64,000 nucleotides of DNA from Paenibacillus sp. BIHB 4019 (lineage in GTDB: Bacteria > Bacillota > Bacilli > Paenibacillales > Paenibacillaceae). This document shows, piece by piece, positions 19,884 through 61,155 of the stretch (positions within the stretch are counted from its first letter, which is position 1; every line of letters starts with the position of its first letter). Position numbers and translations under genes: made by a program. Below the pieces are notes generated by a model, which did not search any database, was not told where the DNA came from, and saw only the letters and a program-made list of their open reading frames with translations. The DNA lies in NCBI RefSeq assembly GCF_002741035.1, contig NZ_CP016808.1:2492001-2556000 (forward strand), read 5' to 3'.

Positions 19884-19982
19884 AAATATAGGAAAGTATA
19901 TGATTTCGCCAACCTTTCTCTATATTTCTCGGACTGAAACGCGCCGCGCCGCCAAAGGATGGCTTTCGGCCGTTTCGCCTTA
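19884..19982 (+). repeat. Structured repeat, copy A
   Basis: This is one of three related elements of about 90-100 bp in the window. Hairpin 1 has arms AAATATAGGAAAG (19884-19896) and CTTTCTCTATATTT (19914-19927). Hairpin 2 begins GAAACG (19936) and ends CGTTTC (19976) around a G+C-rich core containing GCCGCCAAAGGATGGC. Compared with copy B (51541-51639, opposite strand), both arms of hairpin 1 differ while pairing is kept. Copy A lies between the leader terminator and the metN start. Confidence 0.8.
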
Positions 19983-20007
19983 TCACGGAGGAGAGGAGTT
20001 TTTTCGC

Positions 20008-20793
20008 ATGATCGTCATAAAGGATTTGCACAAAACCTATACAAGCGGAAGCAGCACGATTACCGCCTTGAATGACATTAACCTGACGATTGATAAGGGG
20101 GATATATTCGGCATTATCGGCTTTAGCGGGGCAGGCAAATCATCATTGATCCGCTGTCTGAACCGGCTCGAGGAGCCTGATTCGGGCTCGATCGAAGTTG
20201 GCGGCAAGGTGCTGACGGATCTGTCTGGCAAGGAGCTGCGGCTGGCCAGGCGGAAGATTGGAATGATTTTTCAACAGTTTAATTTGCTGGATTCACAAAA
20301 TGTGTTTCAAAATGTCGCGTTTCCGCTTCAAGTGGCTGGTTATCCAAAGCCGTTCATTCAAGAGCGCGTGCGGGAGATGCTGGAGCTGGTCGGGCTGACC
20401 GACAAGGAGCATATGTATCCGTCCCAGCTCAGCGGCGGCCAGAAGCAGCGGGTGGGCATTGCCCGGGCGCTTGTGAATGAGCCGGATGTGCTGCTCAGCG
20501 ATGAGGCGACCTCGGCGCTCGATCCGCAGACGACCTACTCCATTTTGGAGCTGCTCCAGGATATTAACCGCAAGCTGAAGCTGACTATCGTCTTAATTAC
20601 ACATGAGCTGGATGTGCTTCAGCATATTTGCCGCCATATGGCGGTCATTGAGCATGGCACTATCGTCGAGACAGGGACGGTCGACAAGCTGTTTATGAAC
20701 CCCGTCAGCTACACCGCCCGGCGGTTCGTCAGCATCATCGATTATTACCGAGACAAACGGTCGATCATGGAGGGGCTGGGAGCTGGAATATGA
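20008..20793 (+). CDS. metN: Methionine-type ABC importer ATPase (MetN-like, short form)
   Basis: This 261-residue ATPase energises import of methionine or a related sulfur compound. It has Walker [10 protein letters not shown] near residue 38, Q-loop [16 protein letters not shown], signature LSGGQKQR near 140 and Walker [14 protein letters not shown] near 160, with the catalytic Glu present. Usual MetN proteins are about 340 residues and end in a NIL domain that binds methionine and inhibits transport; this protein stops before that domain. The ATG at 20008 is chosen because GGAGAGGAG lies just upstream. An open frame extending upstream to 19810 crosses the leader terminator and repeat and is not coding. 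It overlaps metI by four bases. Confidence 0.9.
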
Positions 20794-21455
20794 GAGATGA
20801 TCTGTTCGAGCTGCTATGGGAGGGACTGCTGGAGACGCTGTATATGGTTGCTTGGTCGTCGGTATTCGCTTTAATCATTGGCATTTTGCTAGGCATTACG
20901 CTAGTCGTCAGCGAGAAGGGCGGCATTTTGGAGGCGCCGATTATCAACAAAATGATTGGGACGGCGATTAATGGCGTGCGCTCGCTGCCCTTTATTATTT
21001 TAATCGTGCTGCTGCTGCCGTTGTCCCGGCTAATTGTAGGCACCTCGCTTGGCCCGACAGCAGCCATCGTCGCTTTATCGATTGGGGCCTCGCCGTTTCT
21101 GGGCCGCATTATTGAAAACTCCTTAAAGGAGGTGAGCGCGGGCAAAATAGAAGCGGCCAAAGCGATGGGAGCGACGCCGCTAACCATCATATTCCGCGTG
21201 CTGATTCCCGAAGCGCTTCCGGCCCTTGTTCGGGGGATAACCATCGCCGTCATTGCGATTACGGAATTTACAGCGGTAGCAGGAGCGATTGGCGCAGGGG
21301 GACTTGGCAGTCTGGCGATCCGCTTCGGCTATCAACGGTTCCGCGAAGATATTTTAATTGCTACTGTTATCGTCATTATTTTATTAGTGCAGGCAATTCA
21401 GCTGTCAGGCGATAGCGTAGCTAAAGCGATTTTGAAAAAGCGTCATCTAGGGTAG
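20790..21455 (+). CDS. metI: Methionine-type ABC importer permease (MetI-like)
   Basis: This 221-residue inner-membrane permease has five predicted helices. The cytosolic coupling helix is visible as [20 protein letters not shown] near residue 115, with the EAA-loop glycine. The segments [17 protein letters not shown] near 65 and [20 protein letters not shown] near 160 match MetI. The start codon overlaps the metN stop (ATGA), showing translational coupling. It forms the membrane channel with the ATPase upstream and receives substrate from the lipoprotein downstream. Confidence 0.93.
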
Positions 21456-21500
21456 CTATAACGGCCCTCAAACCTAAATAGAGAAAGCAGGAGTGTAACG

Positions 21501-22403
21501 ATGAAAACAACGAAATGGACCTTTATATCCGCCCTTATTCTTATATTTAGCCTTATCGTCTCAGGCTGCGGCACCGCAGCCAATAATGCCCCGGCAAGCT
21601 CGCCGGAAGCGAGCGCAGCTGCTAGCCCTGCCGAGCAAACCCAGTCGCCGGAAGCTTCCGCTTCGGCAGCCCCGCAAGAGGCAGTGACGCTTAAAGTAGG
21701 CGCTGCTCCAGTGCCGCATGCTGAAATTTTGGAGTTCGTTAAGCCGCTGCTTAAGGAGCAGGGCGTTAATTTGGAAATCGTTGTGCTTGATGATGAAGGC
21801 CAGCTCAATCCTGCGCTATTTGAGAAGCAGATTGATGCAAACTACTTCCAGCACGTTCCGTATCTGGACTCGATTAAAGGGGAGAAGGGGTATGATTTTG
21901 CCGTAACCGCGAAGGTGCATGTCGAGCCGATTGGCTTTTATTCCGAGAAGCTGAAAGCGAAGGATGACATTGCGGATGGCGCAACGATTGCGATTCCGAA
22001 CAACCCGTCGAATGAATACAGGGCGCTGGTGCTGCTTGAGCAGCAGGGGCTGATCAAGCTGAAGGAAGGCTTGGAAAATACGTACGAGGCAACGCCGAAG
22101 GACATCGTAGACAATCCTAAAAATCTTAAGTTTGAGGAAGTAGATTCGGCAACTTTGCCAAGGGTATTGCCTGACGTAGATGGCGCCATTATCAACACGA
22201 ACCTGGTTTTGGAGGCGGGCATCGATCCGAACACTGCGCTGTTCCGCGAGGATGCAGACTCGCCTTACGCGAACATTATCGTCGTCCGCAGCGGGGATGA
22301 GAACCGCGAAGAAATCAAGAAGCTGGATGCGGCGCTCGTATCGCCCGAGGTGAAAAAGTTCATTCAGGACAAATACGGCGTGGCGGTTGTGCCAGCTTTT
22401 TAA
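21501..22403 (+). CDS. metQ: MetQ/NlpA-family substrate-binding lipoprotein
   Basis: This 300-residue lipoprotein binds the substrate of the importer. The signal peptide ends in the lipobox VSGC (lipidated Cys near residue 23). A Pro/Ala/Ser/Glu-rich linker of about 45 residues tethers the mature domain, which begins LKVGAAPVPHAEILEFV, the NlpA family pattern. FEKQIDANYFQHVPYLD near residue 115 and VDGAIINTNLVLEAG near 230 are also characteristic. It may bind D- or L-methionine, or another sulfur compound released by the adjacent monooxygenase (inference). Confidence 0.94.
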   Translation: MKTTKWTFISALILIFSLIVSGCGTAANNAPASSPEASAAASPAEQTQSPEASASAAPQEAVTLKVGAAPVPHAEILEFVKPLLKEQGVNLEIVVLDDEGQLNPALFEKQIDANYFQHVPYLDSIKGEKGYDFAVTAKVHVEPIGFYSEKLKAKDDIADGATIAIPNNPSNEYRALVLLEQQGLIKLKEGLENTYEATPKDIVDNPKNLKFEEVDSATLPRVLPDVDGAIINTNLVLEAGIDPNTALFREDADSPYANIIVVRSGDENREEIKKLDAALVSPEVKKFIQDKYGVAVVPAF

Positions 22404-22451
22404 ACAAAAATAAAAGAGGCCAAACGGCAAGCTGCGCTCGGCCAACCCTTG

Positions 22452-22500
22452 AAAAGCATGTTCCGTACCGCTGCTGCGGGAAAGAACATGCTTTTTATTT
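22452..22500. terminator. Bidirectional intrinsic terminator
   Basis: AAAAGCATGTTC (22452-22463) pairs with GAACATGCTTTT from 22484 and is followed by TATTT. The desR stop codon lies at its far edge. It serves the convergent metQ and desR transcripts. Confidence 0.78.
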
Positions 22501-23094
22501 AAACCAGCCCTTCTCCTTAAAACGGGTAATCGCCTCAATACGATTGCTCACGCCCAGCTTATCCAAAATGACCGAAATATAATTGCGCACGGTGCCATTG
22601 GTCAAATAGAGCTGGTCGGCGATTTCCTTCGTATTTTTGCCGTCGGCGATGAGGCCGAGAACTTCCTTCTCGCGTTCGGTGAGCGGGTTCTCCTGCCCGT
22701 AGGCGTCGTCCACCAGTTCGGGCGCATAAATGCGGCGGCCTGTCATGACGCTGCGTATGGAGCTCGCCAGCTCCTCGCTAGGGCTGTCCTTGAGCAAATA
22801 GCCGCACACGCCGGCCTTGAGCGCACGGTCGAAATAACCGCTTCTGGCGAAGGTGGTCAAAATGATGACCTTGCAGCCTAGCTGGCGGATTTCTTCCGCT
22901 GCCTCCAGCCCGTTCTTGACCGGCATTTCAATGTCCATAATGCAAATGTCCGGCTTGTGAAGCTGGACGAGCGTGATCGCTTCTTCGCCGTTGCCAGCTT
23001 TGCCAACTACGGTCATATCATCCTCCAGATCAAGCAGGGAAGCAAGCGCCCCCAGCAGCATTCGCTGGTCTTCGGCGATAACAATTCTTATCAT
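22495..23094 (-). CDS. desR: DesR response regulator
   Basis: This 199-residue NarL/LuxR-family response regulator has exactly the length of Bacillus DesR. The receiver domain carries the acidic pocket AEDQ and the phospho-acceptor Asp54 (CIMDIEMP). The LuxR DNA-binding domain begins ENPLTEREKEVLGLIADGK near residue 134. When phosphorylated by DesK in the cold, DesR activates the desaturase gene. It overlaps desK by four bases. Candidate binding sites lie upstream of des at about 25.5 kb. Confidence 0.93.
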   Translation of the reverse strand: MIRIVIAEDQRMLLGALASLLDLEDDMTVVGKAGNGEEAITLVQLHKPDICIMDIEMPVKNGLEAAEEIRQLGCKVIILTTFARSGYFDRALKAGVCGYLLKDSPSEELASSIRSVMTGRRIYAPELVDDAYGQENPLTEREKEVLGLIADGKNTKEIADQLYLTNGTVRNYISVILDKLGVSNRIEAITRFKEKGWFK

Positions 23095-24239
23095 AGCGTG
23101 GGCTCCTTTTCCGGCTTCTGGACGACATTGGGCGCTTTAATGACGAGCATCGTGCCGTCTCCGCAAATAATGTCCAGACTGCCATTAATAAACTCCAGTC
23201 TTTCCTTCATGCCTCTAAGGCCATTTCCCCGGTAATAGCTGCGCGACTCCTTGCCGCCTGTAGCAATGCCCGTGCCATTATCCTGGACGCGGACAATAAG
23301 CTCTGTGCGGGTCGGTTCAATCTCGACCAGGCACTTGGTGGCGGAGCTATGCTTGACGATATTCGTAATAGCTTCCTTGAGGCACATGCTGACGACATTT
23401 TCGGCAAGCAGTGAAGTGTCGGTATGCGCCGGATCGCCTTCTACCAGAAGCTGAATATCGGCAGCCTTCAAAATTTGCTTTACCCGAAAAAGCTCATCCT
23501 CAAGCCGTGTTCCACGCATTTCAGTGACAAGCTCCCGCACTTCCTTGAGAGCGGTGCGCGCCGTTTGGCGCACATCATCGATTTCCTCCTGCGCCTTGGC
23601 CGGGTTTTTGTGCATCAGCTTGCCCGCCAGATCGCTTTTCAGCCCGATAAGCGACAGCTTCTGTCCAATCGTATCATGCAGGTCGCGGGCGATCCGCTGC
23701 CGTTCCTCCAGCTTGACGAGCTCTGAAATCCGCTTGTTGGCATGCTCAAGCTCCCCTTCGAGCTTGTCCCGCTTGTTGCGGTTGTACGTATTGACCGGAA
23801 GCAGAATGACGCCGATCAAGCTAATGAGCACGAAGGGGAACTGCGCGAGAAAGACCGGATTTTGCACAGCCAGCCCAAAGTTGATGCTCAGGAAGGTCGT
23901 GACGATATGAATGGAATACAGCGTAAAGAAGCCGATGCGGTTCTGGATATTGCCGATAAAATAAGCGAGAAAAATCGAGAAATACACATAACCGAACATG
24001 AGCGTCATCGCAATGGAAATAATAATTTGGATGCTGGTCCAGAAATAAACCTGCCAGCCCTTGGATACGAAGGAGAGCATATAACAGATGAAAAATAAAA
24101 TGATCATCACAATGCCGGACGTCGCTTGGTAGGGCGATGAATTGCGGAAAATAAAGTAGAAGGGCAGGATGTAGAAAACGACCCAAACGTAAGGGCTGAT
24201 TCCCGTATTTTTATGAAAAATATGATGCCATTTTTGCAT
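23091..24239 (-). CDS. desK: DesK membrane-thickness/cold-sensing histidine kinase
   Basis: This 382-residue sensor has about five hydrophobic segments in the first 150 residues, then a HisKA_3 dimerisation domain and a C-terminal ATPase. The phospho-acceptor is His188 in RIARDLHDTIGQKLS, the same number as the well-studied His188 of Bacillus DesK. The ATPase shows the N-box CLKEAITNIVKHS and the G-boxes DNGTGIA and YRGNGLRGMKERL. In the cold, thicker membranes switch DesK from phosphatase to kinase toward DesR. It is followed by desR with a four-base overlap and preceded by the desaturase gene after a terminator-like hairpin. Confidence 0.93.
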   Translation of the reverse strand: MQKWHHIFHKNTGISPYVWVVFYILPFYFIFRNSSPYQATSGIVMIILFFICYMLSFVSKGWQVYFWTSIQIIISIAMTLMFGYVYFSIFLAYFIGNIQNRIGFFTLYSIHIVTTFLSINFGLAVQNPVFLAQFPFVLISLIGVILLPVNTYNRNKRDKLEGELEHANKRISELVKLEERQRIARDLHDTIGQKLSLIGLKSDLAGKLMHKNPAKAQEEIDDVRQTARTALKEVRELVTEMRGTRLEDELFRVKQILKAADIQLLVEGDPAHTDTSLLAENVVSMCLKEAITNIVKHSSATKCLVEIEPTRTELIVRVQDNGTGIATGGKESRSYYRGNGLRGMKERLEFINGSLDIICGDGTMLVIKAPNVVQKPEKEPTL

Positions 24240-24302
24240 ATGCGTCCCGCCTTTTTAAATCGCTGTTGCAGCAATAAGAGCTGCTTTGAAGCTATTTTAA
24301 CA

Positions 24303-24339
24303 TAAAAGAGGCTCGCGCATTTGGTTCGGCGCAGCCTCT
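24303..24339 (-). terminator. Terminator-like hairpin between des and desK
   Basis: On the minus strand AGAGGCTGCGC pairs with GCGCGAGCCTCT (arms at 24329-24339 and 24307-24318) and is followed by TTTTATG. Read-through would give a lower level of desKR than des, as in Bacillus. Confidence 0.65.
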
Positions 24340-24363
24340 ATATATGCATTTGTTCCTTGCTTG

Positions 24364-25410
24364 CTAGCCTACGCGTCTTGTATCAAGCTTGGTGCTTGCT
24401 CCCTTCGGCTTGCGCAGACGGTGCTTCAAGCCTTTGAAGCTGACGAACATTTTGTTCTCTTCATCCCACAAGCGGAAACGCAGGGCGGTCAAGCTTGTTT
24501 TCAAAGTGATTGTCGTAGCCTGTTGAAGCGGAACGGAGGAGTTATGCGCATCCTCCAAATAATAGTTGGGAACCTTAGGGCTCAAATGATGCACATGATG
24601 GAAGCCAATGTTTCCGCTCATCCATTGAAGGATACGGGGAAGCTTGTAATAAGAGCTGCCTTCAACGGCTGCTTTCACGTAGCTCCACTCATCGTCATGT
24701 TCAAAATACGTATCTTCAAACTGGTGCTGGACGTAGAACAGCCAAATGCCGAAAAATCCTGATAAAAACATAACCGGCAGTTGAACCATTACGAAGGCCT
24801 GCCAGCCCAGCATCCAGCCCAGACCTGCATATAAAGCGACAATCGACGCATTGATTAAATAGGTGTTGATGCGTTCCGGGCGTCTTGCATCTTTGCGGTT
24901 AAAACGGTGCTGAATTAAGAAGACGGCAATGGGACCAAGGCCGAACATCACAATCGGATTACGATAAACCCGGTAATAAAAACGTTGCATAGGCGTTGCT
25001 GCGATATATTCATCCACCGTCATAATCCAGATGTCGCCAACGCCTCTTTTATCGAGGTTGCTGCTGGTTGCATGATGGATGGAGTGGCTGCGTTTCCACT
25101 GCTGGAAGGGGACGAGCGTAATGACGCCGGTAATGTTGCCGACAATAGCGTTTGCCCGTTTGCTTTTGAAAAAAGAACCGTGGGTGCAATCATGGCAAAT
25201 AATAAAGGCCCGAATGACAAAGCCGGCGGTAATCAAGGAAAAAAGAATCGTCAACCAATAGGAGATTGGCATGACGGCATATGCCGCGTACCAGAAAAAG
25301 ACGAGTGGGACTAGTGTATTGATTAATTGTTGTATGCTGGTTTTCATATTCACTTTTTCGTAAGGGGCAAGGCTCTTTTTCAAGCTCGCTTGCTTGGCTT
25401 TCTGATCCAT
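24364..25410 (-). CDS. des: Acyl-lipid desaturase (Delta-5 type)
   Basis: This 348-residue membrane di-iron desaturase introduces a cis double bond into phospholipid acyl chains to keep membranes fluid in the cold. The three histidine boxes are present: HDCTH near residue 98, HSIHH near 134 and HHVHH near 265. Hydrophobic segments flank them as in Bacillus Des (352 residues). The gene order des, desK, desR matches the Bacillus locus, which makes the assignment strong. DesR-like palindromes lie upstream of the start. Electron donors (ferredoxin or flavodoxin) are not encoded nearby. Confidence 0.94.
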   Translation of the reverse strand: MDQKAKQASLKKSLAPYEKVNMKTSIQQLINTLVPLVFFWYAAYAVMPISYWLTILFSLITAGFVIRAFIICHDCTHGSFFKSKRANAIVGNITGVITLVPFQQWKRSHSIHHATSSNLDKRGVGDIWIMTVDEYIAATPMQRFYYRVYRNPIVMFGLGPIAVFLIQHRFNRKDARRPERINTYLINASIVALYAGLGWMLGWQAFVMVQLPVMFLSGFFGIWLFYVQHQFEDTYFEHDDEWSYVKAAVEGSSYYKLPRILQWMSGNIGFHHVHHLSPKVPNYYLEDAHNSSVPLQQATTITLKTSLTALRFRLWDEENKMFVSFKGLKHRLRKPKGASTKLDTRRVG

Positions 25411-25499
25411 AATGAAGCTCCTCCTTCAATAACAAGACGTACATCCTCTGTTCGAGATGCTCGCATCCTGCTAGCTATATTTATATTGTAAAGAAAAAC

Positions 25500-25552
25500 G
25501 TCATGAGCCATAAGTCATAAACGTCAGTTCAGCTATATGACATATGTCATAT
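25500..25552 (-). promoter_or_regulatory. Candidate DesR binding region upstream of des
   Basis: A perfect 18-bp palindrome, ATATGACAT followed by ATGTCATAT (25535-25552), and further TCATGA (25501-25506) and GTCAT (25514-25518) elements lie 90-140 bases upstream of the des start. The A/T-rich segment at about 25473-25492 can supply the -10 region. Tandem GTCAT/ATGAC sites next to a weak promoter fit DesR activation. Confidence 0.65.
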
Positions 25553-25738
25553 GAACACGCTTCTGCATGCCCATAAATGCATGTTTTTAACAATATTATT
25601 GCAGGGACTGGAATAGATAGAGGGCAGTTGGATGGGGGCTGGACGAATAGGCTGAGCCGATAGCGTTTGTATAAGAAAATTGTAGCGTATGTGCATTGTA
25701 GGCAGGATGGGCGATGGGCTACACTTGATCAAGTTGTT

Positions 25739-25753
25739 TGATAATGATAATCA
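25739..25753 (+). promoter_or_regulatory. Fur box
   Basis: TGATAATGATAATCA matches the 7-1-7 Fur consensus at 14 of 15 positions and lies about 30 bases upstream of the ATG at 25780, over the likely promoter (TTGATC upstream). It predicts iron repression of the lipoprotein gene. Confidence 0.85.
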
Positions 25754-25779
25754 CTGATTTAGAGGGGAGTCGAACAGAG

Positions 25780-26811
25780 ATGTTGCGATGGGGAAAAAAG
25801 AGGTTCAAAGGTAAAATGACGGCGCTCACGTTAGTGGCATTAGCCGTTATCATAGCGCTCGCGGGTTGCGGTTCGCAAGGCGAGACAGCTGTTAATACGG
25901 AGGCTAGCGATGCAGCGGCTACTGTTAGCCCATCTCCTGCGGCAGCGGATGAGCCGGCAGCTGCCGAGCAGGAAGCGGAAACGCGAGTACTGAAGGACGA
26001 GTTTGGCGAGGTGACGGTTCCGGCGCATCCGAAGCGCGTTGCGGCGATTTATTTGGAGGACTATTTGACGGCGCTTGGCGTAACGCCAGTTGTCCAATGG
26101 TACCATCCGAGCTGGGGCACACAGGAGTATTTGAAGCTGGATTTGCCAACCTTTGATATAACGGGCAATATCGAGGCACTGCTTGCCTATGAACCGGATC
26201 TGATTATTTTAGATGGCTGGGCGGACAAAACCAAATATGACATGTTTTCGAAAGTAGCGCCTACTTACCGCTTGCCAGAAAATATTTTACAGGATACCAA
26301 AGCGGTAATGCAGACGGTTGCTGATGTATTGAATATGAAGGAAGATAGTGAAAGCGTACTGAGTGCTTACGAGCAGAAAATTGCCGATGCCAAGGACAAG
26401 CTGACCCAATCGCTTGGCGAAGAGACGGTCGCGGTTGTGCGCTTGAATGTCGATGACCAGACGCTCTCCCTGTTCGGAATCAAAAACCGCTATACCGGCT
26501 TTATATTCTCCGATCTGGGCTTGAACCCAGATAAGTGGACGAAGGAGATGACCGATTACCACCAGGTGCTTTCGGAAGAAAGCATTCCAGATATCGATGC
26601 TGACCAAATTATTATTTTCCCATCGAACGGCGCTTGGGACTCTCCTGAAAATGCGGAGGCCATTAAGCTGCTGGACGGAAACATGTGGCAGGCTGTGCCT
26701 GCAGTGAAAGCTGGACATGTGCACCGTGTAGAAAGATCACATTGGCAATCCGGAGCAGTTACAGCTAACTCGATGAAAATTGATGATATTTTGAAAATGT
26801 TCGTGAAATAA
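25780..26811 (+). CDS. Iron-siderophore ABC transporter substrate-binding lipoprotein
   Basis: This 343-residue siderophore-binding lipoprotein has a lipobox ALAGC (Cys near residue 29) after a basic N-terminus, then an Ala/Glu-rich linker. The binding domain starts RVLKDEFGEVTVPAHPKRVA and contains EDYLTALGVTPVVQWYHPSW near residue 100. The ATG at 25780, with AGGGGAG ten bases upstream, is preferred; an in-frame upstream ATG lies inside the Fur box. No permease or ATPase gene is adjacent. The downstream AraC regulator carries a domain whose sequence closely parallels this protein, so both probably bind the same siderophore. Confidence 0.92.
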   Translation: MLRWGKKRFKGKMTALTLVALAVIIALAGCGSQGETAVNTEASDAAATVSPSPAAADEPAAAEQEAETRVLKDEFGEVTVPAHPKRVAAIYLEDYLTALGVTPVVQWYHPSWGTQEYLKLDLPTFDITGNIEALLAYEPDLIILDGWADKTKYDMFSKVAPTYRLPENILQDTKAVMQTVADVLNMKEDSESVLSAYEQKIADAKDKLTQSLGEETVAVVRLNVDDQTLSLFGIKNRYTGFIFSDLGLNPDKWTKEMTDYHQVLSEESIPDIDADQIIIFPSNGAWDSPENAEAIKLLDGNMWQAVPAVKAGHVHRVERSHWQSGAVTANSMKIDDILKMFVK

Positions 26812-26852
26812 GCAGCGCCCCTAGCAAGCGTGCTATTGAAGAAATAAAGAGG

Positions 26853-26887
26853 AAGGCCCATCGGTGCATTGATGGGCTTTCTTTTTT
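26853..26887 (+). terminator. Intrinsic terminator
   Basis: AAGGCCCATC (26853-26862) pairs with GATGGGCTTT (26871-26880), apart from one bulged base near the end, followed by CTTTTTT. It separates the lipoprotein gene from the regulator gene. Confidence 0.8.
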
Positions 26888-26902
26888 CATTTATACTAGT
26901 TG

Positions 26903-26917
26903 TGAAAATCATTCTCA
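26903..26917 (+). promoter_or_regulatory. Fur box upstream of the AraC regulator
   Basis: TGAAAATCATTCTCA matches TGATAAT-N-ATTATCA at 13 of 15 positions and lies about 65 bases before the regulator start. The regulator is therefore probably iron-repressed together with its lipoprotein. Confidence 0.78.
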
Positions 26918-26982
26918 TTTACTTCGGCATGTGCAGGCATAACGCATGCGGTGTGCCCAAGACATCCTAAGGGGGATATGAA

Positions 26983-50728: not shown

Positions 50729-51454
50729 TTAGCGCTCGTGGCGTTTTTGTTTCATGTTTAAGATTTCGGATTCAGTAAGACCGGATGCTTTAGCAATAAT
50801 ATGCGCTTCAACTCCAAGAGCTATAAGCTCGGAAGCAATTTCGATTGTTTTTTTTCGCTCGCCGCGGGCCTCCCCTTCTGCTAAAGCACCTTCAATCATG
50901 GAAGCCTCGTCGTGCAAATACTTTTGCCGATCCTCATACAGGCGACGCGCTTCTGTATCCTGGCTAAGAAACTCAAGTGTATTCATAGCTTTCTTTAATA
51001 CAGGATCGTTCATGGTGAGCACCTCCCAATTGGATTTATTCGTACTCTTTAGAAACAGCAGCCAATTGACCAATCCTCCATTTCCAACAGGTACTGCGAG
51101 GCCATCTAGCTTGGGCAATTCTAAAAAATGCAGTTCTATATCATCGATTAGGGAAATGCCACTGCGATCTTCTCGAAGGTGAAACACGTTATGATACTGT
51201 TCGTTAGGCAAAAATGAGTAATTAAGAATATTGATTGTGACACATTTTTTGAGCAGCTTATAAGATTGACCTTCTTGCAATTGTCCATTGTAGAGCTTAC
51301 TCCAATAAAAAAGAGTGCGCTTCTCAGTGTCATATTTATTGAACAGTTGCATTTCAACATTAATTAGTTCACCTTCGGCGGTTTTACCCCGAATATCTAA
51401 GATCGATTGTTTGTCTCGTGGAGCATCTTATTCTGTATAGGGATTGAGAAGAAG
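50729..51454 (-). pseudogene. Rpn-family recombination-promoting nuclease/putative transposase, 5'-truncated and interrupted
   Basis: The open part (207 residues from 51352) has the C-terminal two thirds of an Rpn (PD-(D/E)XK) protein: VEMQLFNKYDTEKRTLFYWSKLY, FHLREDRSG, a long E/A/R-rich helix (EGALAEGEARGERKK) and a C-terminal helix. Reading upstream in the same frame the protein continues (LDIRGKTAEGELIN, DAPRDKQS) and then meets TAA at 51428-51430, with five further family-like codons (NPYTE) and LLL before another stop at 51455-51457. The N-terminal 50-70 residues are absent. Nuclease residues Asp (LDIR) and Glu/Gln (VEMQ) are still present. I read it as a decayed gene. Confidence 0.8.
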
Positions 51455-51540
51455 TCAAAGGAATAGGTTGACCCATCCGTCTTTTGTTGTTACTATTTTG
51501 TGGAAAATACTTTTACGGCAATCGTTCATCACTTTTCTCA

Positions 51541-51639
51541 AGGTGAAACGGCTGTCGCCGTCCTTTGGCGGCGCGGCGCGTTTCATTCCGAGAAATATAA
51601 GCTTAATGATAAGTGTGAAGCTTATGCAAGCTTATATTT
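51541..51639 (-). repeat. Structured repeat, copy B
   Basis: Reverse-complement counterpart of the element at 19884-19982. Its first hairpin has perfect 12-bp arms, AAATATAAGCTT (51593-51604) and AAGCTTATATTT (51628-51639). The second runs GAAACG (51545-51550) to CGTTTC (51579-51584) around a G+C-rich core with GCCGTCCTTTGGCGGC. It lies between the Rpn remnant and the aldo/keto reductase gene. Confidence 0.82.
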
Positions 51640-51663
51640 TAAAAAAGAACAGGAGGAACAAAG

Positions 51664-53507: not shown

Positions 53508-53599
53508 ATTGTGCAAAAATTGTTTCAAAAGACGCAACTTCCCGCAAAGCTTGGGCGTCTATAGGATATTCAGGAATGTATTGGAGGGGGAAGCAGGAG

Positions 53600-55948
53600 A
53601 TGGGAAGCAAAAAAAGGTTGATTGCATTTGTTGCGTTGGTCGCGATAACAAGCAGTGTGCCTACCGCCGCTTTTGCAAACGGAGCGAACGTGGCGATTGA
53701 TCGCCAGACTAATCTGGCAGACCGCATTTCCGGGGAGGGCTCCATGGAAGCTGCTGAGAATGTATCGGTTTCAAAGGATAAGGCTGAGAAGCTGGCCCGT
53801 GAGCGTGTGAGTATTCCGAAGGAATATACGCTGCAGGGCGCGTCTTTGGCGGTCACTGTGCTGGCGCAGGGCAAACGCAATGTGTGGGGGCTTGATTTCG
53901 TTAAGAAAGTGAATGGCAAGCATAAGGGCAGCATTTATGTGCAAATTGATGCTGACGGCGGTCAGTTGCTTGCTTTTAGCTCCTATTTAGAAAATGCAAG
54001 CTCCAAGCCGACGTATCCGCTCAAGGTAGAGCGTTCGGCTGCCCAGGATATTGCTGCTTCCTTCATGAAGCAAATTGCTGCTTCGTACGCAGACCAGGTG
54101 CGCTACAACCCCGAATACGGGGCTCAGGTGCTTCCCCCACTGACAGGCGAGGTAGTTCATAAAATTCGCTATGACCGAATCATTAATGATATTCCTTATG
54201 TAGACAACTATATTGAACTCGATGTGGACAGCGAAGGCCATATTACTAATTATAAATTGCAATGGGACGACACGCTGCAGTTTCCAAAAGCAGACTCGCG
54301 CATTACGCTAGCTGAGGCCAATGCCAAGCTTCGTGAGCTTGCCCAGCCCGAGCTGCAATACATTGTGCCCTATAGCCCGCAAGGCCAGCGTTTCCCAATG
54401 CTTAGCTACGAGATGGGCAGTCTGGCGATTGATGCACTCGATGGCTCGCTGATTAAGAAGCTATACGATCAGACAAGCAGCGTATCCGCTACTCCAATTG
54501 CGCCAGCAGCGCTTGGCGAAGCGCCCAAAGCAGGCAATATGACGGACAAACAGGCGATTGCGCTTGTAGAGACTTCTTTCAAGCTGCCAACAGGCGCTGT
54601 GCTGTCCAATTCGAGCTACAATGAGTACAACGACGATACAACAGGCCATAACGAATCGTATTGGAACCTCAATTGGACGACGAAGAGCGGATCTAGAGAG
54701 ACCGGCTCTGTATCGGCCACTGTGGACAGCAAGACGGGGATTATTCGCAGTTATTATGCCTATTCTTACGATGGCGGGGATACTTCGGTAAAGCCTTCCT
54801 TGACCTACGAGCAGGCGGAGAAGATTGCAACCGATACGGTGAAAAAGCAGCTTTCTTGGGCGGCTGACCAGCTTTACGTTGTAAAGCCTGATCCGAAGCA
54901 GTACAGCGATGCGCCAGCAGGCACGATTAATTCCTATTATATTTCCTTTGTCCGCAAAATTCAGGGTGCTACGGTGTCCTACGATCGGGTCAATGTCAAT
55001 GTCGATGCCCGGACGAATGAAGTGACGATGTATGACGCCCAGCTCGCTTCCTTCAACTACCCGGCGCAAGCACCCAAGGTTATTGAGAAAAAGGAAGCGA
55101 TTGAAAAATGGCTTAGCTACTATCGTACAGAGCTGACTTATTATGTAGAGCGGGAATATTCCCTCCAAGGCCAGCCGATCCCTATTGATAAATATAACCT
55201 GATGCTGGCGGCTGGCGAGCTGGATTCCGAGCAGGTGGAAAGCAAGACGGATGTGAAGCTTGTTTACCGCCTTGTGCCGGCTGCGATTGATGAATCCGTA
55301 TTCCTGGATGCCCAAAGCGGGCAATGGCGGAATCGCGAAAGTGGCGAGGTTACGGCGTTAGAGAAGCCTAAGGCGCTTGATGTCGAAGGCCACTGGGCGC
55401 AGCGCCAGCTGGAGCTGATGGTTGCCTACAAGGCGCTGGATGTGAAGGATGGCAAGGTGCGTCCAAATGCGATTGTGACACGCGGCGAATTGATTAAAAT
55501 GCTCGTGCTTGCTATGAATAGCGGCCGTGGGCCGGTTGTGATGGCGAATGCTGAATCGGGCAGTGCGGCTTTTAGCGATGTAGCGGCGGGTTCAGGCTAT
55601 TATGTATATGTCCAAAGCGCGCTTGAGCAAAATCTGATTGATATTGGCGACGGCACCTTTAATCCGGCAGGCGAGGTAGACCGTGAGGAAATGGCCGAGC
55701 TGATCGTCCGGGCATTGGGCTACAATACGCTGGCAAATTATGACCAGCTGTTCAATATCAATTTTAAAGATGCGGACAAAACAGAGAAAAAAGGCCAGGC
55801 GGCAATCGTGGTCGGCCTCAACATTATGTCGCTGTCGGACGGAAGCTTCCTTCCGGAACGTAAGGTGACGCGGGCCGAGGCGGCGACGGCATTTTTCCGT
55901 TACCTGCAAACGCGGGCGGATTTAAAGGAAGCGCCGATTCGCAACTAA
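53600..55948 (+). CDS. Secreted YcdB/PepSY-like protein with C-terminal S-layer homology domains
   Basis: This 782-residue surface protein has a signal peptide (MGSKKRLIAFVALVAITSSV..., cleavage near AAFA, residue 26). Two or more YcdB/YcdC-like modules with PepSY-type beta-helix-beta pattern follow (VWGLDFVKKVNGKHKGSIYV near 95; LNWTTKSGSRETGSVSATVD near 360). Three SLH-like segments close the protein (DVEGHWAQRQLELMVAYKAL; FSDVAAGSGYYVYVQSALEQ; LPERKVTRAEAATAFFRYL), which anchor it to wall polysaccharide. Start ATG 53600 has GGAGGGGG nine bases upstream; the open frame extends upstream through the terminator and is not coding there. The role is unknown; PepSY modules often inhibit proteases or sense the wall. 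Confidence 0.88.
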   Translation: MGSKKRLIAFVALVAITSSVPTAAFANGANVAIDRQTNLADRISGEGSMEAAENVSVSKDKAEKLARERVSIPKEYTLQGASLAVTVLAQGKRNVWGLDFVKKVNGKHKGSIYVQIDADGGQLLAFSSYLENASSKPTYPLKVERSAAQDIAASFMKQIAASYADQVRYNPEYGAQVLPPLTGEVVHKIRYDRIINDIPYVDNYIELDVDSEGHITNYKLQWDDTLQFPKADSRITLAEANAKLRELAQPELQYIVPYSPQGQRFPMLSYEMGSLAIDALDGSLIKKLYDQTSSVSATPIAPAALGEAPKAGNMTDKQAIALVETSFKLPTGAVLSNSSYNEYNDDTTGHNESYWNLNWTTKSGSRETGSVSATVDSKTGIIRSYYAYSYDGGDTSVKPSLTYEQAEKIATDTVKKQLSWAADQLYVVKPDPKQYSDAPAGTINSYYISFVRKIQGATVSYDRVNVNVDARTNEVTMYDAQLASFNYPAQAPKVIEKKEAIEKWLSYYRTELTYYVEREYSLQGQPIPIDKYNLMLAAGELDSEQVESKTDVKLVYRLVPAAIDESVFLDAQSGQWRNRESGEVTALEKPKALDVEGHWAQRQLELMVAYKALDVKDGKVRPNAIVTRGELIKMLVLAMNSGRGPVVMANAESGSAAFSDVAAGSGYYVYVQSALEQNLIDIGDGTFNPAGEVDREEMAELIVRALGYNTLANYDQLFNINFKDADKTEKKGQAAIVVGLNIMSLSDGSFLPERKVTRAEAATAFFRYLQTRADLKEAPIRN

Positions 55949-56011
55949 GAGCTGAAAGCTATCCCTAGCTCAGCAATTCGAGGCATAGCCTACGGGAAGC
56001 AATGAACAACG

Positions 56012-56065
56012 GAAGAGCCTTCGGCCAAGCAGCTAATTGGCTGGAGGCTCTTCTGTGTTCTTTTT
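56012..56065. terminator. Intrinsic terminator
   Basis: GAAGAGCCTTCGGCCAA (56012-56028) pairs with TTGGCTGGAGGCTCTTC (56037-56053), with two mismatches and an eight-base loop, followed by TGTGTTCTTTTTT. It lies before the small convergent gene. Confidence 0.8.
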
Positions 56066-56095
56066 TACCGGAAGAATAGATGGGTTTAGGGATGG

Positions 56096-56239
56096 TTAGT
56101 CGGTTTTTTTCTTCTTGTCTGTGAAGTTGGATACGGATTTCGTATCCTTAATGTTATCGTTTACGAATGCCATGTCCTGATTTTTCGCATGCATTTTCGT
56201 TGTGCCTTTGTAATTGCCTTTATGAGTGTTGTTTTCCAC
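56096..56239 (-). CDS. Small lysine/asparagine-rich protein of unknown function
   Basis: This 47-residue protein is read from GTG at 56239, behind a perfect AGGAGGTG site, to TAA at 56096-56098. It is very hydrophilic: it begins MENNTHKGNYKGTTKMHAKN, has a middle ...QDMAFVNDNIKDTKSVSNF and ends in a lysine run (DKKKKTD). There is no cysteine and no hydrophobic core, so it is probably unstructured. Size and composition recall small basic spore or DNA/RNA-associated proteins of Bacilli, but I cannot match one. The ribosome site is strong evidence for translation. Confidence 0.68.
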   Translation of the reverse strand: MENNTHKGNYKGTTKMHAKNQDMAFVNDNIKDTKSVSNFTDKKKKTD

Positions 56240-56431
56240 GGCGCTTCACCTCCTGACTGCGGGTAACCCCAGCTATAGTATGACCGAAGCGTTCTGAAGC
56301 ATGCGTGAAAAAAAGGACATGAGGGGCTGCAAAACGGAGTTGTACAAGCATAATAATGTATAAATCATAATTCCATGTGTGTATTCGCTGCTAGTCATTT
56401 TGTGGCTCTGTTAGCTGTGTTTCCATCAAGG

Positions 56432-56854
56432 TTACAAGGTGCATACAACGATTTCGATTTCCGTCTCAGCAAAAACATTTTTAATAATTTCTTTGACTTG
56501 CCCCCATTGCAGTTTATCGAGTCCGCAACCGATTTGCGGCATGGCGAGCTGGGTGATGCCCTCCTGCAAGCAAATGTCCTTCATGGATACGATGGCTTGG
56601 GTAAGCGTTTGATAGGTGGGCTTGTGAAAATATTTTGTTTTTGTAACTAAATTCAAAGCTCTGTCGACTTTATAGCAGGTTCCTACAGCTAATGGGCTAT
56701 TGTCAGCCATATTTTGCAAGGGTTTGAGTTTAAAATGTTTACGGAATAAAACGGCGATTCCAGCGCCCATTTTAGCATCGGCAGAAATGCAATGGGCAAG
56801 GCAATAGGTTTCTGGCATCGTAAATAAGTCCTTTTTCATTTCGGTAAAATGCAT
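56432..56854 (-). CDS. Macrodomain ADP-ribose hydrolase, TARG1/OARD1-like
   Basis: This 140-residue stand-alone macrodomain closely resembles human TARG1, which releases ADP-ribose from glutamate/aspartate and deacylates O-acyl-ADP-ribose. Conserved blocks are CLAHCISADAKMGAGIAVLF near residue 18, VTKTKYFHKPTYQTL near 70 and AMPQIGCGLDKLQW near 105. By alignment from memory, TARG1 catalytic Lys84 and Asp125 (41 apart) correspond to Lys72 and Asp113 here (also 41 apart). No ADP-ribosyltransferase is adjacent. The bacterial role could be repair of DNA or protein ADP-ribosylation. Confidence 0.9.
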   Translation of the reverse strand: MHFTEMKKDLFTMPETYCLAHCISADAKMGAGIAVLFRKHFKLKPLQNMADNSPLAVGTCYKVDRALNLVTKTKYFHKPTYQTLTQAIVSMKDICLQEGITQLAMPQIGCGLDKLQWGQVKEIIKNVFAETEIEIVVCTL

Positions 56855-57084
56855 GTAACGTCACTCCTCTGCTCTGATTTTATCACAAGGTCAAAGCGGC
56901 GGGGATTAATCGGCGGAAATCAGACAAAAGCTATGGGAAGAAATAAACAGCAAATATGAATTTGAATACGGATTCTAATTTAATGCTCTTGCCCGAACGC
57001 TGGCTGGAACAGGGTGTATGAACACCACAGCAGGGGCATTTTGCTAAGCGGGTAAGCGAACTCGCCCTTTTATTGTTTATACGC

Positions 57085-57096
57085 ATCGGGTATAAT
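57085..57096 (+). promoter_or_regulatory. Candidate promoter -10 of ychF
   Basis: TATAAT at 57091-57096 lies about 40 bases before the ychF start. The -35 (TTTTAT near 57068) is weak. Confidence 0.45.
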
Positions 57097-57137
57097 GACG
57101 AGAGCTTGTTACTTCGGAAAATGGGGTGTCTTTACGC

Positions 57138-58238
57138 ATGGCTTTAAAAGCTGGTATCGTAGGCTTGCCGAATGTCGGCAAATCGACTTTGTTTAATGCA
57201 ATTACGCAAGCGGGTGCTGAATCCGCTAACTATCCTTTTTGTACAATTGATCCTAACGTTGGTGTTGTAGAGGTGCCGGATCCGCGTCTGAACAGGCTCG
57301 TTGAGCTTGTAGTGCCGAAAAGCATCGTGCCTACAGCATTTGAGTTTGTTGATATTGCCGGTCTGGTAGCAGGCGCGAGCAAGGGCGAAGGGCTTGGCAA
57401 CAAGTTTTTGGCGCATATCCGTGAAGTCGATGCGATTGTTCATGTCGTTCGCTGCTTCCAAGACGAGAATATTACGCATGTAGCGGGCAAAATCGACCCG
57501 ATCGACGATATTCAGACGATTAATCTGGAGCTTATATTGGCGGATATTGATTCCGTTGATAAAAAGATCGAGCGCTCCCGCAAAAATCTCAAGGGCGGCG
57601 ACAAAAAAGTTGTGCAAGAGGTTGAAGTGCTTGAGCGTGTAAAAGAAGCGCTCTACAATGATATGCCAGCGCGCAGCCTGGAGCTGTCCGAGGATGAGAA
57701 GCTGCTCATTCGCGATCTTCACTTGCTGACAATGAAGCCTGTGCTTTATGCAGCCAATGTAAGCGAAGCTGAAGTGGCTGACACGGACAATAACGAATTC
57801 GTTAATAAAGTTCGCGAGTTCGCTGCTGCTGAAAATGCAGAAGTGGTGCCTATTTCCGCGCGCGTTGAGGAAGAAATTGCCGAGCTGGAAGGCGAAGACA
57901 AGGCGATGTTCCTTGAGGAGCTTGGCCTTGCGGAGTCGGGCCTTAACCGTCTGATTCGTGCGGCGTACAAGCTGCTTGGCCTTTATACGTATTTTACGGC
58001 AGGCGTGCAGGAAGTTCGCGCTTGGACGATTCGCAGCGGAACGAAAGCGCCGCAGGCAGCTGGCGTTATTCATACGGATTTTGAGCGTGGCTTTATTCGC
58101 GCCGAGATTGTATCGTTTGACGATTTGTCTGCTGCCGGTTCGATGAACGTGGCGAAAGAGCGTGGCCAGGTTCGCCTGGAAGGCAAAGATTATGTCGTAA
58201 AAGACGGCGATGTTATCCATTTCCGCTTTAACGTTTAG
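57138..58238 (+). CDS. ychF: YchF ribosome-associated ATPase/GTPase
   Basis: This 366-residue Obg-related protein of the YchF/OLA1 family hydrolyses ATP rather than GTP and binds ribosomes. G1 is [11 protein letters not shown] near residue 9, G3 DIAGLV near 70, and the G4 position reads NVSE ([10 protein letters not shown]) rather than NKxD, which explains the ATP preference. The C-terminal TGS domain begins near [17 protein letters not shown] (residue 290) and ends [13 protein letters not shown]. The ATG at 57138 follows GGGGTG at nine bases; a GTG at 57126 lies inside that site and is rejected. Confidence 0.94.
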
Positions 58239-58383
58239 ATTTTTCACAGAAGAGGGAGCTTTCGATCTGCTATTTAAGCGGATTCGGAGGCTCCTTCGTC
58301 TAGGTATGCGAACTTAATAAGCGGAAAAGTAGAAAACTGGGCGCGGCGGCAGTAATTCGCTTGTCGATAGAATGCTGCGCATA

Positions 58384-58392
58384 TGTTATAAT
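58384..58392 (+). promoter_or_regulatory. Extended -10 promoter of prfA
   Basis: TGTTATAAT (58384-58392) is a perfect extended -10 about 35 bases before the prfA start. TTGTCG upstream (58361) is a poor -35 at 20-base spacing. Confidence 0.6.
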
Positions 58393-58427
58393 GGAGTATC
58401 AAAGTGTGATAACAGAGGTGAATGATG

Positions 58428-59498
58428 GTGTTGGACCGTTTACAAGCACTGGCTGATCGTTACGAGAAGTTGAGTGAGCTGCTGTGTGATCCAGATGTAG
58501 CAAGTGATCCGAAGCGTCTGCGGGAATATTCCAAGGAGCAGTCCGATCTGCAACAATCTTATGAAGCTTATACTGAATATAAACAAGTGTCGGAGCAGTT
58601 GGACGATGCGAAGGTTATGCAGGGCGAGAAGCTGGATGATGAAATGCGCGAGATGGTCAAGATGGAGATTGATGAGCTGTCTGACCGCAAGGAAGAGCTG
58701 GAAGAAAAAATTAAAATTTTGCTTCTGCCGAAAGATCCGAACGATGACAAAAACGTTATCGTGGAAATTCGCGGCGCAGCTGGCGGCGATGAAGCGGCTT
58801 TGTTCGCTTATGAGCTGTACCGCATGTACACGAAGTTTGCGGATACGCAAGGCTGGCGTGTAGAGCTGATGGATTTTAATGAAAATGACTTGGGCGGCTT
58901 TAAAGAGGTTATTTTCATGATTACGGGCAAAGGCGCCTACAGCAAGCTGAAATTCGAGAGCGGCGCTCATCGGGTACAGCGTATTCCGGTAACGGAATCA
59001 GGCGGCCGTATTCATACGTCCACCTCAACCGTTTCGGTTATGCCGGAGGTTGAGGAAGTGGAAGTCGAGATTTTCGACAAGGATATTCGGGTAGATACGT
59101 TCTGCTCCAGCGGCGCAGGCGGCCAGTCGGTTAATACGACAAAATCCGCTGTCCGGGTGCTTCACGTACCGACGGGCATTATGGCGACTTGCCAAGACGG
59201 CAAATCGCAAAATGAGAACAAAGCCAAGGCGTTGCAAGTATTGCGTGCGCGTATTGTCGATGTACAGCGTCAAGAGGAAGAAGCAAAATATGCTGGCGAG
59301 CGTAAAAGCAAAGTCGGAACGGGCGACCGCAGTGAGCGGATTCGCACGTATAATTTCCCGCAGAGCCGCGTGACGGATCACCGTATTGGTCTTACGCTGC
59401 ATAAGCTGGATTCGGTTATGAACGGCGACATGGCGGAAATTATTTCGTCGCTGACGATTGCTGAGCAAGCCGACATTATGGAGAGAGAACTGAACTAA
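58428..59498 (+). CDS. prfA: Peptide chain release factor 1
   Basis: This 356-residue class I release factor terminates translation at UAA and UAG. Motifs: [13 protein letters not shown] near residue 110, [15 protein letters not shown] with the tripeptide stop-recognition loop Pro-Val-Thr near 185, and the universal GGQ in [17 protein letters not shown] near 227, whose glutamine is methylated by PrmC encoded downstream. I choose GTG 58428 because it aligns with the Bacillus start and has AGAGGTG at suitable spacing; ATGs at 58422 and 58425 are too close to that site. The order prfA-prmC-spoIIR matches Bacillus. Confidence 0.94.
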
Positions 59499-59547
59499 CT
59501 GAAGTGCTTTCCCAAGATGGCTGCCGGATCAGGCATGCTGCGTGAAG

Positions 59548-59590
59548 AGGCAGGATTTTCGAGCATCAGTGCTTGGAGACCCTGCCTTTT
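59548..59590 (+). terminator. Terminator-like hairpin between prfA and prmC
   Basis: AGGCAGG (59548-59554) pairs with CCTGCCT (59581-59587), with an inner GAGC/GCTT helix, followed by TTTATG. It probably only attenuates read-through into prmC. Confidence 0.5.
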
Positions 59591-59650
59591 ATGCGGCTAT
59601 GCGTTTTATTGGCGGGCATTTAGGGAAGTAAAGAAAGGGACGTTGGATAC

Positions 59651-60736
59651 ATGGGCGACAATAGCAAGGAGTGGAAGGTTTTGCTGCCTTGTACCATTAG
59701 AGAAGCCTGCTTGCAGGCTTCTTCGTTTTTGGCGGGGCAGGGCGTCGAGGAGCCGCGCAATAATGCGGAGCTGCTGCTCCTGCATCTGCTGGGCATCGGC
59801 CGCATGGAGCTGCTGCGAGACGGCGGCGATTCTTTTCCGAGCGAGCTTGCTCCAGCATGGGACGAGCTCATTCGGCGTAAAGGGAATGGCGAGCCGGTGC
59901 AATATATCATCGGCGAGCAGTGGTTCTACAGCAGGCCGTTTGCGGTTACGCCGGCCGTGCTGATTCCGCGGCCCGAGACGGAGCTGCTCGTCGAGGCTGT
60001 GCTTGAGGCGGCGGATCGCCTGTGGCCGGAATCGGCACAGGCGGACGCAGAGGGCGCGCCAGCGGAAGGCGCGGCCGAGGCGGGGGATGCCGCTGCGAGC
60101 AATAGCGCTAGCGAGCAGGCGGAGCAGGAGGGAGAGTCAGCGATAGCGGCTGGCTCGGCTAAGGGCTTGGCTGCGCGGCCGACGGTGCTTGATGTCGGCA
60201 CGGGCAGCGGCGCCATCGGCGTGACGCTGGCTGCGCTGCGTCCGCTCTGGCGCGTATGCGCGTCCGATCTTTCGCCGGACGCGCTGGTTGTCGCCCGCAC
60301 GAATGCGGCCCGCCATGGAGCGGCGGGCCGCATGGCGTTCGTGCAGGGCGACCTGCTGGCGCCGTTCCTCGGAACGGGCGGCGCCGCCGCAGCCCAGGCA
60401 CTCGGCGCGGAAGACCTCCGCGTCGATGTGCTGGTATCTAATCCGCCGTATATACCGGCGGATGACCTCCCTGGCTTGCAGCGCGAGGTGCGGGATTACG
60501 AGCCGCACCTCGCGCTGGATGGCGGAGCGGACGGGCTAGACCCGTACCGCCGCATGGTAGAGCAGCTGCCGCTGCTGAGGCAAATGCCGCGCATCGTCGC
60601 TTTCGAGCTGGGCATGGGCCAAGCGGAAGCGGTGGCGGAGCTATTAAGGAAAGCGGATATGTGGGACGAGGTACGGACGATTACAGATTATGGCGGCATT
60701 GACCGCCATGTTATTGCGGTGCGTACCAACGGGTAG
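59651..60736 (+). CDS. prmC: Release factor glutamine methyltransferase
   Basis: This 361-residue SAM-dependent enzyme methylates the GGQ glutamine of release factors. An N-terminal helical domain (about 1-90) is followed by IIGEQWFYSRPFAVTPAVLIPRPETELL, the SAM site VLDVGTGSGAIGVTLAAL near 185, and the catalytic NPPY in LVSNPPYIPADDLPG near 265. Usual PrmC is about 285 residues. This one carries an insertion of roughly 55 residues of Ala, Glu, Gly and Ser (about 125-180) between the first conserved block and the SAM site, plus a short GGAAAAQ run near 245. The insertions do not touch the motifs, so activity should be kept. Confidence 0.93.
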   Translation: MGDNSKEWKVLLPCTIREACLQASSFLAGQGVEEPRNNAELLLLHLLGIGRMELLRDGGDSFPSELAPAWDELIRRKGNGEPVQYIIGEQWFYSRPFAVTPAVLIPRPETELLVEAVLEAADRLWPESAQADAEGAPAEGAAEAGDAAASNSASEQAEQEGESAIAAGSAKGLAARPTVLDVGTGSGAIGVTLAALRPLWRVCASDLSPDALVVARTNAARHGAAGRMAFVQGDLLAPFLGTGGAAAAQALGAEDLRVDVLVSNPPYIPADDLPGLQREVRDYEPHLALDGGADGLDPYRRMVEQLPLLRQMPRIVAFELGMGQAEAVAELLRKADMWDEVRTITDYGGIDRHVIAVRTNG

Positions 60737-60785
60737 GCAGGATGAATAATCTCCCTTGTGAAGCACACCTGCGGCATGCCACTTC

Positions 60786-60990
60786 TGCATGCCACGAGTA
60801 TGCATCAGCATAATGCAAGTTCGCTCTGCATGCCACGAGTGTGCATCAGCAAACTGAAAGTTCGCTCTGCATACCACGAGTGTGCATCAGCAAACTGCAA
60901 GTGCTATGCATGTCACAAGTGTGGCATCAGCAAACTGCAAGTTTGCTCTGCATGCCACGAGTGTTTATCAGCATACTGCAAGTGCGCTCC
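60786..60990. repeat. Tandem repeat, five units of about 41 bp
   Basis: Units begin TGCATGCCACGAGTGTGCAT and continue CAGCAAACTGCAAGTTCGCTC. Starts are at 60786, 60827, 60868, 60907 and 60949, with lengths 41, 41, 39, 42 and about 41. Each can form a small hairpin (ATGYCAC with GTGNCAT around a 4-base loop). Units are contiguous, without spacers, so this is not a CRISPR. Because 41 is not a multiple of three, no single protein frame reads through all the units in the same way. Confidence 0.88.
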
Positions 60991-61003
60991 TGCAGGAGCG
61001 CAC
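60982..61003. repeat. Perfect 22-bp palindrome at the end of the tandem array
   Basis: GTGCGCTCC (60982-60990), TGCA, GGAGCGCAC (60995-61003) is perfectly self-complementary. It overlaps the last unit of the 41-bp array and has no T-run, so it is not a simple terminator. Confidence 0.8.
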
Positions 61004-61064
61004 AGCTCCGAAAATTGCTAGAGGGCAGTAACAATAGAATAGCCCAGGGGTCTGTTTATTTTTG

Positions 61065-61155
61065 AAATATAAGAAAGTATATGTTTCCTTACTGAGCTTC
61101 AATTTCTCTGTCTGAATAGCAACGCTAAAGGGCGGCGACAGCCGTTTACGCTTGT
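61065..61155 (+). repeat. Structured repeat, copy C (divergent)
   Basis: Shares AAATATAAGAAAGTATATG (from 61065) with copy A, then ATTTCTC-x-CTGAA and AAAGGGCGGCGACAGCCGTTT (61118-61147 region) with copies A and B. The first hairpin is degraded here. It lies directly upstream of the spoIIR promoter. Confidence 0.72.

Follow-up and report, generated by a model that had tools for sequence, protein, structure and literature searches.

Transposons of the IS200/IS605 family carry hairpins at both ends and insert just 3′ of a short target sequence without duplicating it. Elements of the IS91/Helitron type, whose ends are likewise free of duplication, bear a 3′ hairpin shortly before a CTTG-like terminal motif, occur in tandem arrays, and use a fixed tetranucleotide target and a CTRR terminus. 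IS200/605 ends are described with a guide tetranucleotide immediately 5′ of the hairpin foot (PMC6006769); REP sequences are given as 21-65 nt long, most with a 5′ GT[AG]G tag (PMC6006769, PMC3733652, PMC8266576); bcr1, RUP and NEMIS are named as classic bacterial miniature inverted-repeat transposable elements (MITEs; PMC3733652); and group IIC introns are reported to insert at intrinsic terminator motifs, with a smaller fraction at attC sites (PMC4424553). Here we describe a repeat family of Paenibacillus sp. BIHB 4019, represented by three copies (A, B and C) in the stretch of 64,000 nucleotides that was analysed (NZ_CP016808.1, positions 2,492,001 to 2,556,000; hereafter the window). The elements are ~98 bp long, lie after T-tracts without a target-site duplication, and are probably moved in trans, as single-stranded DNA, by a putative HUH-type nuclease.

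A first-pass annotation of the window had named the absence of any further copies as the outcome that would speak against an element of this kind; the complete 7.25-Mb genome instead holds at least 150 units. All 150 scored candidates match our first model at E ≤ 1.4e-10, and the core pattern is found at 52 places in the genome, compared with one for the reversed pattern. If units no more than 600 bp apart on one strand are counted as one site, the 150 scored units make up 115 sites, of which 19 contain 2 to 5 of them. Relatives within the genus carry from 0 to at least 93 scored units per genome. The distribution of the family is patchy but order-wide in the Paenibacillales: with at most 16 candidates scored per genome, matches occur in 112 of the 246 genomes sampled, representing 23 of 46 genera. 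High-copy lineages, such as genus g14 (at least 16 candidates in 27 of the 29 listed genomes), g1 and parts of f6, can be compared with low-copy ones, such as genus g15 (0 to 2 matches in the listed genomes). A check for plasmid or phage origin found two Paenibacillus cellulosilyticus replicons matching the family, at 7 places, and no match in the phage records searched. Nine viral contigs that match the core pattern were set aside as apparent chance matches, none of them showing the 5′ hairpin (P1, below) ahead of the match. There are no Rfam matches above the gathering score in the window, and a permissive Rfam scan of a five-unit array returned unrelated matches only, all under gathering. 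We recognised no description of the repeat in the literature searched, although one may exist elsewhere.

Evidence of mobility comes from comparison with the close relative G041, which is ~90-93% identical to BIHB 4019 at the metN locus. We fetched 114 of the 115 sites, and for 29 of these both flanks lie in the fetched part of G041, which consists of ~1.2 Mb in large pieces and 31 short, mostly element-bearing loci, so that the split among the 29 (10 sites empty in G041, 18 occupied in both genomes and one unscorable) is not that of a random sample. At all ten empty sites the G041 flanks join directly, for example as TTCTTTTTTA / AGAAAAGTG at copy B, where TTTTTTA and AGAAAAG are joined. No target-site duplication is present in these ten comparisons, in which at most ~1 nt is ambiguous, and this sets the element apart from the classic MITEs of DDE transposons. 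The duplication that the first-pass annotation had proposed to look for is thus not seen, while its suggestion of a mobile miniature element is well supported by the high copy number, the ten clean empty sites, the tandem arrays and the patchy spread through the order. Eight relatives were compared at the metN locus. In five of them (Table 1) the T-tract of the leader, which precedes copy A, is uninterrupted; G053 and G051 have no leader; and in G021 a unit clearly unlike copy A occupies the same tract, which favours two insertions over a single loss. Unit number differs from that in G041 at eight of the 18 shared sites. At seven of these (1805391, 1919132, 2177624, 2185353, 2821536, 6417736 and 6557271) the additional units are placed to the right-end side of the shared unit, and at 6193663 they are not. 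At 5292757 (G000) and its G041 counterpart there are two units each, the second units being different, as if each lineage had gained a second unit of its own.

The insertion target was defined from the 101 sites that have no other unit immediately to their left. T prevails from position -8 to -2 of the left flank (63 to 90 of 101), with 90 at -3 and 76 at -2, and the base at -1 is A in 50, G in 30, T in 18 and C in 3. T-tracts adjoin 84 of the 101 left ends but only 6 of the right ends, and the right flanks of these sites show no T motif like that on the left. The -1 base matches the empty site rather than the donor, which means that element and target share no core; readings as an integron, an IS110 element or a substrate of a serine or tyrosine recombinase were set aside on this ground, with no search made for those enzyme families. 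A hairpin, here a GC-rich stem ending no more than 12 nt from the insertion point, precedes 23 of the 84 insertion T-tracts compared with 11 of 226 other intergenic T-tracts taken from the window (odds ratio 7.4, P = 1.7e-7); by the same criterion the figure for T-tracts overall is 45 of 804.

Units also form head-to-tail arrays. After the removal of duplicates from overlapping pieces, which left 315 distinct units in total, there are 80 distinct pairs of neighbours within 60 bp, of which 79 abut with 0 bp between them and one is 46 bp apart. The abutting pairs range widely in similarity, with 33 at 95% or above, 17 at 85-95% and 29 below 85%; within the BIHB 4019 genome the corresponding numbers for 45 pairs are 24, 11 and 10. 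Judged by these similarities, the dissimilar neighbours would fit insertion at the right end of a resident unit and are hard to reconcile with recent local duplication.

Each unit is laid out as the hairpin P1, a short linker (TCTC, TCAC and similar), a second hairpin, P2, and a terminal YTTR. In alignment A3 the first base of the unit is already part of P1, whose outer stem is of the AAATATA type. The terminus is mostly CTTG, the endings CCTTG, GCTTG and CCTTA accounting for 193, 60 and 17 of the 315 distinct units, and in 215 of 268 distinct right halves pairing stops 3 to 5 nt short of the end. The two ends of the unit, AAATATA.. and ..CACCTTG, show no complementarity and are not joined by terminal inverted repeats, the palindromes being local hairpins. 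By eye, P2 falls into three types (GG..TGAAACG/CGTTTCA.CC, GCG-AAACG/CGTTT-A-CGC and GCAAA..TTTGC), the third of which occurs with either the AATTCTAAG or the AAATATAAG form of P1. Compensatory changes exceed those in shuffles, as the first-pass annotation had anticipated, with 61 two-sided cells against 23.4 +- 3.8 and none of 500 shuffles reaching 61. Across 48 distinct units, 12 of the 15 P1 pairs have changed on both sides, and the P1 covariation score is 0.259 against 0.116 in shuffles and 0.13 or less in slid registers. Kinship alone can beat shuffles, and the structure was derived from the same 48 sequences; it is the slid-register control and the many pair types that argue for P1 as a real stem. 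RNAalifold, applied to an earlier alignment of 25 units, recovered only the near-invariant core of P2, without covariation. The covarying stems offer a clean model with which the family can be annotated. Separately, P2-like cores without P1 (GCCAAAGG..GGC....GCCGTTT) were noticed at L213:17404-17434, L218:16341-16375, L257:16645-16677 and L234:17083-17120, the first three in an apparently equivalent place; these are possibly remnants or a related single-copy element.

We propose the following mechanism of how the units might move. With the element strand folded into P1 and P2, the enzyme would make one cut behind the YTTR that ends the element (mostly CTTG) and another behind a T-rich, YTTR-like motif in the target, and the ends would then be joined without overlap. 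To such an enzyme, the hairpin and T-tract of an intrinsic terminator would resemble the right end of the element, which could explain a preference for terminator-like sites. Since the right end of a resident copy would itself be a target, head-to-tail arrays could arise in the same way. By analogy, HUH-type single-strand joining fits best, given the zero overlap, the fixed target side and the hairpin ends. The enzyme could be a divergent HUH protein below the reach of Pfam, a visitor on a phage or plasmid, an enzyme of another kind, or one that has been lost. A bolder idea, which we entertain only tentatively, is that it falls outside the current HUH, IS91, Rep and reverse-transcriptase models and treats terminators and its own right end as one target. 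Were the enzyme of such a new kind, terminators would be its landing sites and the tandem arrays a by-product.

Several observations weigh against this proposal. Profile searches covered 51 genomes of the genus for each of five HUH families and for PF00078. PF01797, PF04986, PF01446, PF02486 and PF05840 all have 0 matches in the complete BIHB 4019 genome, and no one of the five families occurs throughout the high-copy genomes (BIHB 4019 itself, G010, G011, G016, G022 and G041); PF01797 and PF04986 are each found in 8 of the 51. An autonomous parent, with a left end, an open reading frame (ORF) and a right end, was not seen in 3,796,089 bases of partly overlapping pieces, where 41 lone right-end and 5 lone left-end rows were found but no pair enclosing an ORF. 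Of the five lone left ends, four have the third P2 type and one extends past its piece. Single-strand transposition predicts a replication-strand bias, and 80 of 114 units do lie on the G-rich strand, but the bias follows the direction of the upstream gene: among sites with clear skew, G-rich-strand placement is seen in 63 of 65 that are co-directional with that gene and in 12 of 39 that are antiparallel, leaving no independent bias among the 114 units. By the criterion used, 61 of the 84 insertion tracts have no hairpin, and where there is one it can lie anywhere from 0 to 11 nt away from the site of insertion; it may thus act as a preference rather than a fixed recognition point. Any one empty site could mark a precise loss from G041, slippage or unequal crossing-over could account for near-identical neighbours in arrays, and at 2666094 the difference from G041 is a partial deletion in the BIHB 4019 genome, the second unit being a remnant.

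The lack of a candidate enzyme among the Pfam families searched in this genome would also be expected of a relic family, whose transposase has been lost from the lineage and in which change now comes from slippage and decay only, and the decayed state of copy C is in keeping with this. We nevertheless regard it as unlikely, as ten sites are empty in so close a relative as G041 and arrays hold nearly identical units, two findings which suggest that the element was active after, or shortly before, the split between BIHB 4019 and G041. Exact insertion without duplication and stems that covary, as an RNA might, are also compatible with a retro-element, in which RNA copies of the unit would enter T-tracts behind terminators by reverse splicing or reverse transcription, in the manner of group IIC introns, which are reported to target intrinsic terminators (PMC4424553). 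RVT_1 (PF00078), however, is present in 28 of the 51 genus genomes yet without a match in the complete BIHB 4019 genome or in high-copy G022, and the unit, at ~98 nt, shows no relevant Rfam similarity and no ribozyme domain that we recognise, which makes this origin very improbable.

Strong covariation in P1 would likewise be expected of a cis-acting RNA (a regulator, a processing site or a terminator helper) that had spread by duplication and been kept for regulating its neighbours, and at 64 of the 114 sites there is indeed a gene start no more than 150 bp away, to the left or to the right. These counts use simple ORF picks, by which a same-strand gene start follows within 150 bp at 49 sites and a gene 3′ end lies within 150 bp at 71. 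Orientation relative to genes, taken from the same kind of picks, is nonetheless mixed: of the 114 sites, the unit runs with both of its neighbouring genes at 48 and against both at 21, lies between a divergent pair at 21 and a convergent pair at 16, falls within an ORF at 5 and has no visible downstream gene at 3. The three neighbours in the window are unrelated genes, and close relatives differ both in the presence of copies and in the number of units per site. The regulatory RNA module that the first-pass annotation had offered as an alternative consequently does not hold as the primary role, left ends being found on T-tracts whatever the downstream gene and copy B being antisense to its own, and we consider an RNA kept for regulation quite unlikely to be the explanation of the family. 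From sequence context, secondary regulatory use of single copies is possible. In g15, another genus with very few copies, eight genomes (loci L432, L433, L434, L435, L438, L440, L441 and L446) have one unit fixed directly before a ribosome-binding site (RBS), at ~1501-1598 in unit-strand orientation. Its P2 half is 99.5% identical across the eight, the flanking 50-bp windows all being lower at 84.8-98.6%, which favours a cis-acting role at this locus and suggests that the unit may be used by the host. The gene downstream resembles a flavin reductase.

Within the window, a covariance model built from 48 units (R2) gives strong matches only to copies A, B and C (Table 1), which are themselves members of the underlying alignment; a fourth row, at E 0.16, is the opposite strand of copy B, owing to palindrome overlap. 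The three copies lie where they had first been placed, copy B being 2 bases longer than then stated, and the P1 arms of copies A and B differ and yet pair in both folds, as had been noted. The fold of copy B beats all 200 shuffles, both as DNA and as RNA, and that of copy A beats 198 of them as DNA and 196 as RNA. The fold of copy C is equalled or beaten by 69 of 200 shuffles as DNA and by 142 of 200 as RNA, so this copy gives no structural evidence. P. algorifonticola XJ259, the named record closest to BIHB 4019 with a PrfA that is 100% identical, has a more intact counterpart in the corresponding neighbourhood (L178).

Table 1 Copies of the element and their insertion targets, in window coordinates
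Feature	Position	Strand	Basis
Copy A, whole unit, 99 bp	19884..19982	+	R2 model, E 8.7e-19
Copy A, 5′ hairpin P1	19884..19927	+	Fold, and covariation of P1 across 48 units
Copy A, 3′ hairpin P2 (closing stem GAAACG..CGTTTC), then terminal GCCTTA	19936..19976	+	Fold
Copy A, T-rich insertion target (TTTTTTTTTATTT)	19871..19883	+	Tract uninterrupted in relatives G041, G006, G045, G008 and G054
Copy B, whole unit, 101 bp	51539..51639	-	R2 model, E 6.6e-21
Copy B, T-rich insertion target, TTTTTTA on the - strand	51640..51646	-	Sequence and G041 empty site
Copy C, decayed unit, 90 bp	61065..61154	+	R2 model, E 4.4e-14

All three copies are within 150 bases of a gene start, as originally described, the distances depending on our choice of start codon. 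Copy A, which has the T-tract of a leader terminator on one side and the RBS on the other, ends 25 bp before the start of a MetN-like ABC ATPase (ATG 20008), for which MetN is the best NCBIfam match, below its cut-off. Copy B is 24 bp from the start of an aldo/keto reductase (51664), to which it is antisense, and copy C is ~120 bp before spoIIR (ATG 61275). The MetN-like gene is preceded by a conserved leader (GTTGACCAG..CTGGAAACTAA) with a terminator hairpin and a T-run behind it (19807-19880), which is seen also in L259, L260, L261, L262, L265 and L266. The leader has no meaningful match in Rfam, a relaxed threshold included, and is possibly an undescribed regulatory leader RNA. Adjoining copy B is a gene for an Rpn-family recombination-promoting nuclease without a start (50729-51352, - strand; profile match from position 71-73); this 5′-truncated gene was rejected as a partner of the element, there being one other match in the fetched pieces and no link to the element. 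Irregular repeats (GCATGCCAC / GTGTGGCATCAGC, GCTCCTGCAGGAGCGCA) lie at 60900-61020, between prmC and copy C.

Taken together, the unit appears to be a non-autonomous miniature mobile element, otherwise of a known class, with a real chance that a new enzyme stands behind it. An element in high copy number, spread through a large order of soil-dwelling bacteria and without a recognisable enzyme in a complete genome, makes the missing transposition system searchable, and terminators, if movement by a single-strand nuclease is as we propose, would serve as safe landing sites. In being short, non-coding, intergenic and dispersed, the unit resembles the classic bacterial MITEs, but it lacks both the terminal inverted repeats that would join its ends and a target-site duplication. 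With regard to the terminator preference of group IIC introns the picture is mixed (a hairpin at 23 of 84 insertion tracts versus 11 of 226, with 61 of 84 lacking one); a unit of ~98 nt is no full ribozyme with a reverse transcriptase, and the genome has no RVT_1 match. With the REP, REPIN and BIME sequences mobilised by TnpA_REP (RAYT) it shares the character of a high-copy, intergenic, non-autonomous hairpin repeat that is sometimes tandem. It differs from REPs in its length of ~98 bp, its two hairpins and its head-to-tail arrays at zero spacing; in alignment A3, inspected by eye, no GT[AG]G tag is conserved ahead of P1 or P2, and RAYTs belong to PF01797, a family with 0 matches in this genome. 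The absence of duplication, the 3′ hairpin near a terminal CTTG-like motif and the tandem arrays recall IS91/Helitron elements, from which the unit is set apart by its T-tract target, its CTTG rather than CTRR terminus and the lack of a Y2 transposase (PF04986) match in the genome. In comparison with IS200/IS605, P1 opens at the first base and leaves no room for a left guide, and the genome has no match to a Y1 transposase (PF01797). Like IS200/IS605, the unit lies just 3′ of a short target sequence that is left unduplicated, as at all ten empty sites, and a single-strand mechanism like that of this family is what we propose for it by analogy.

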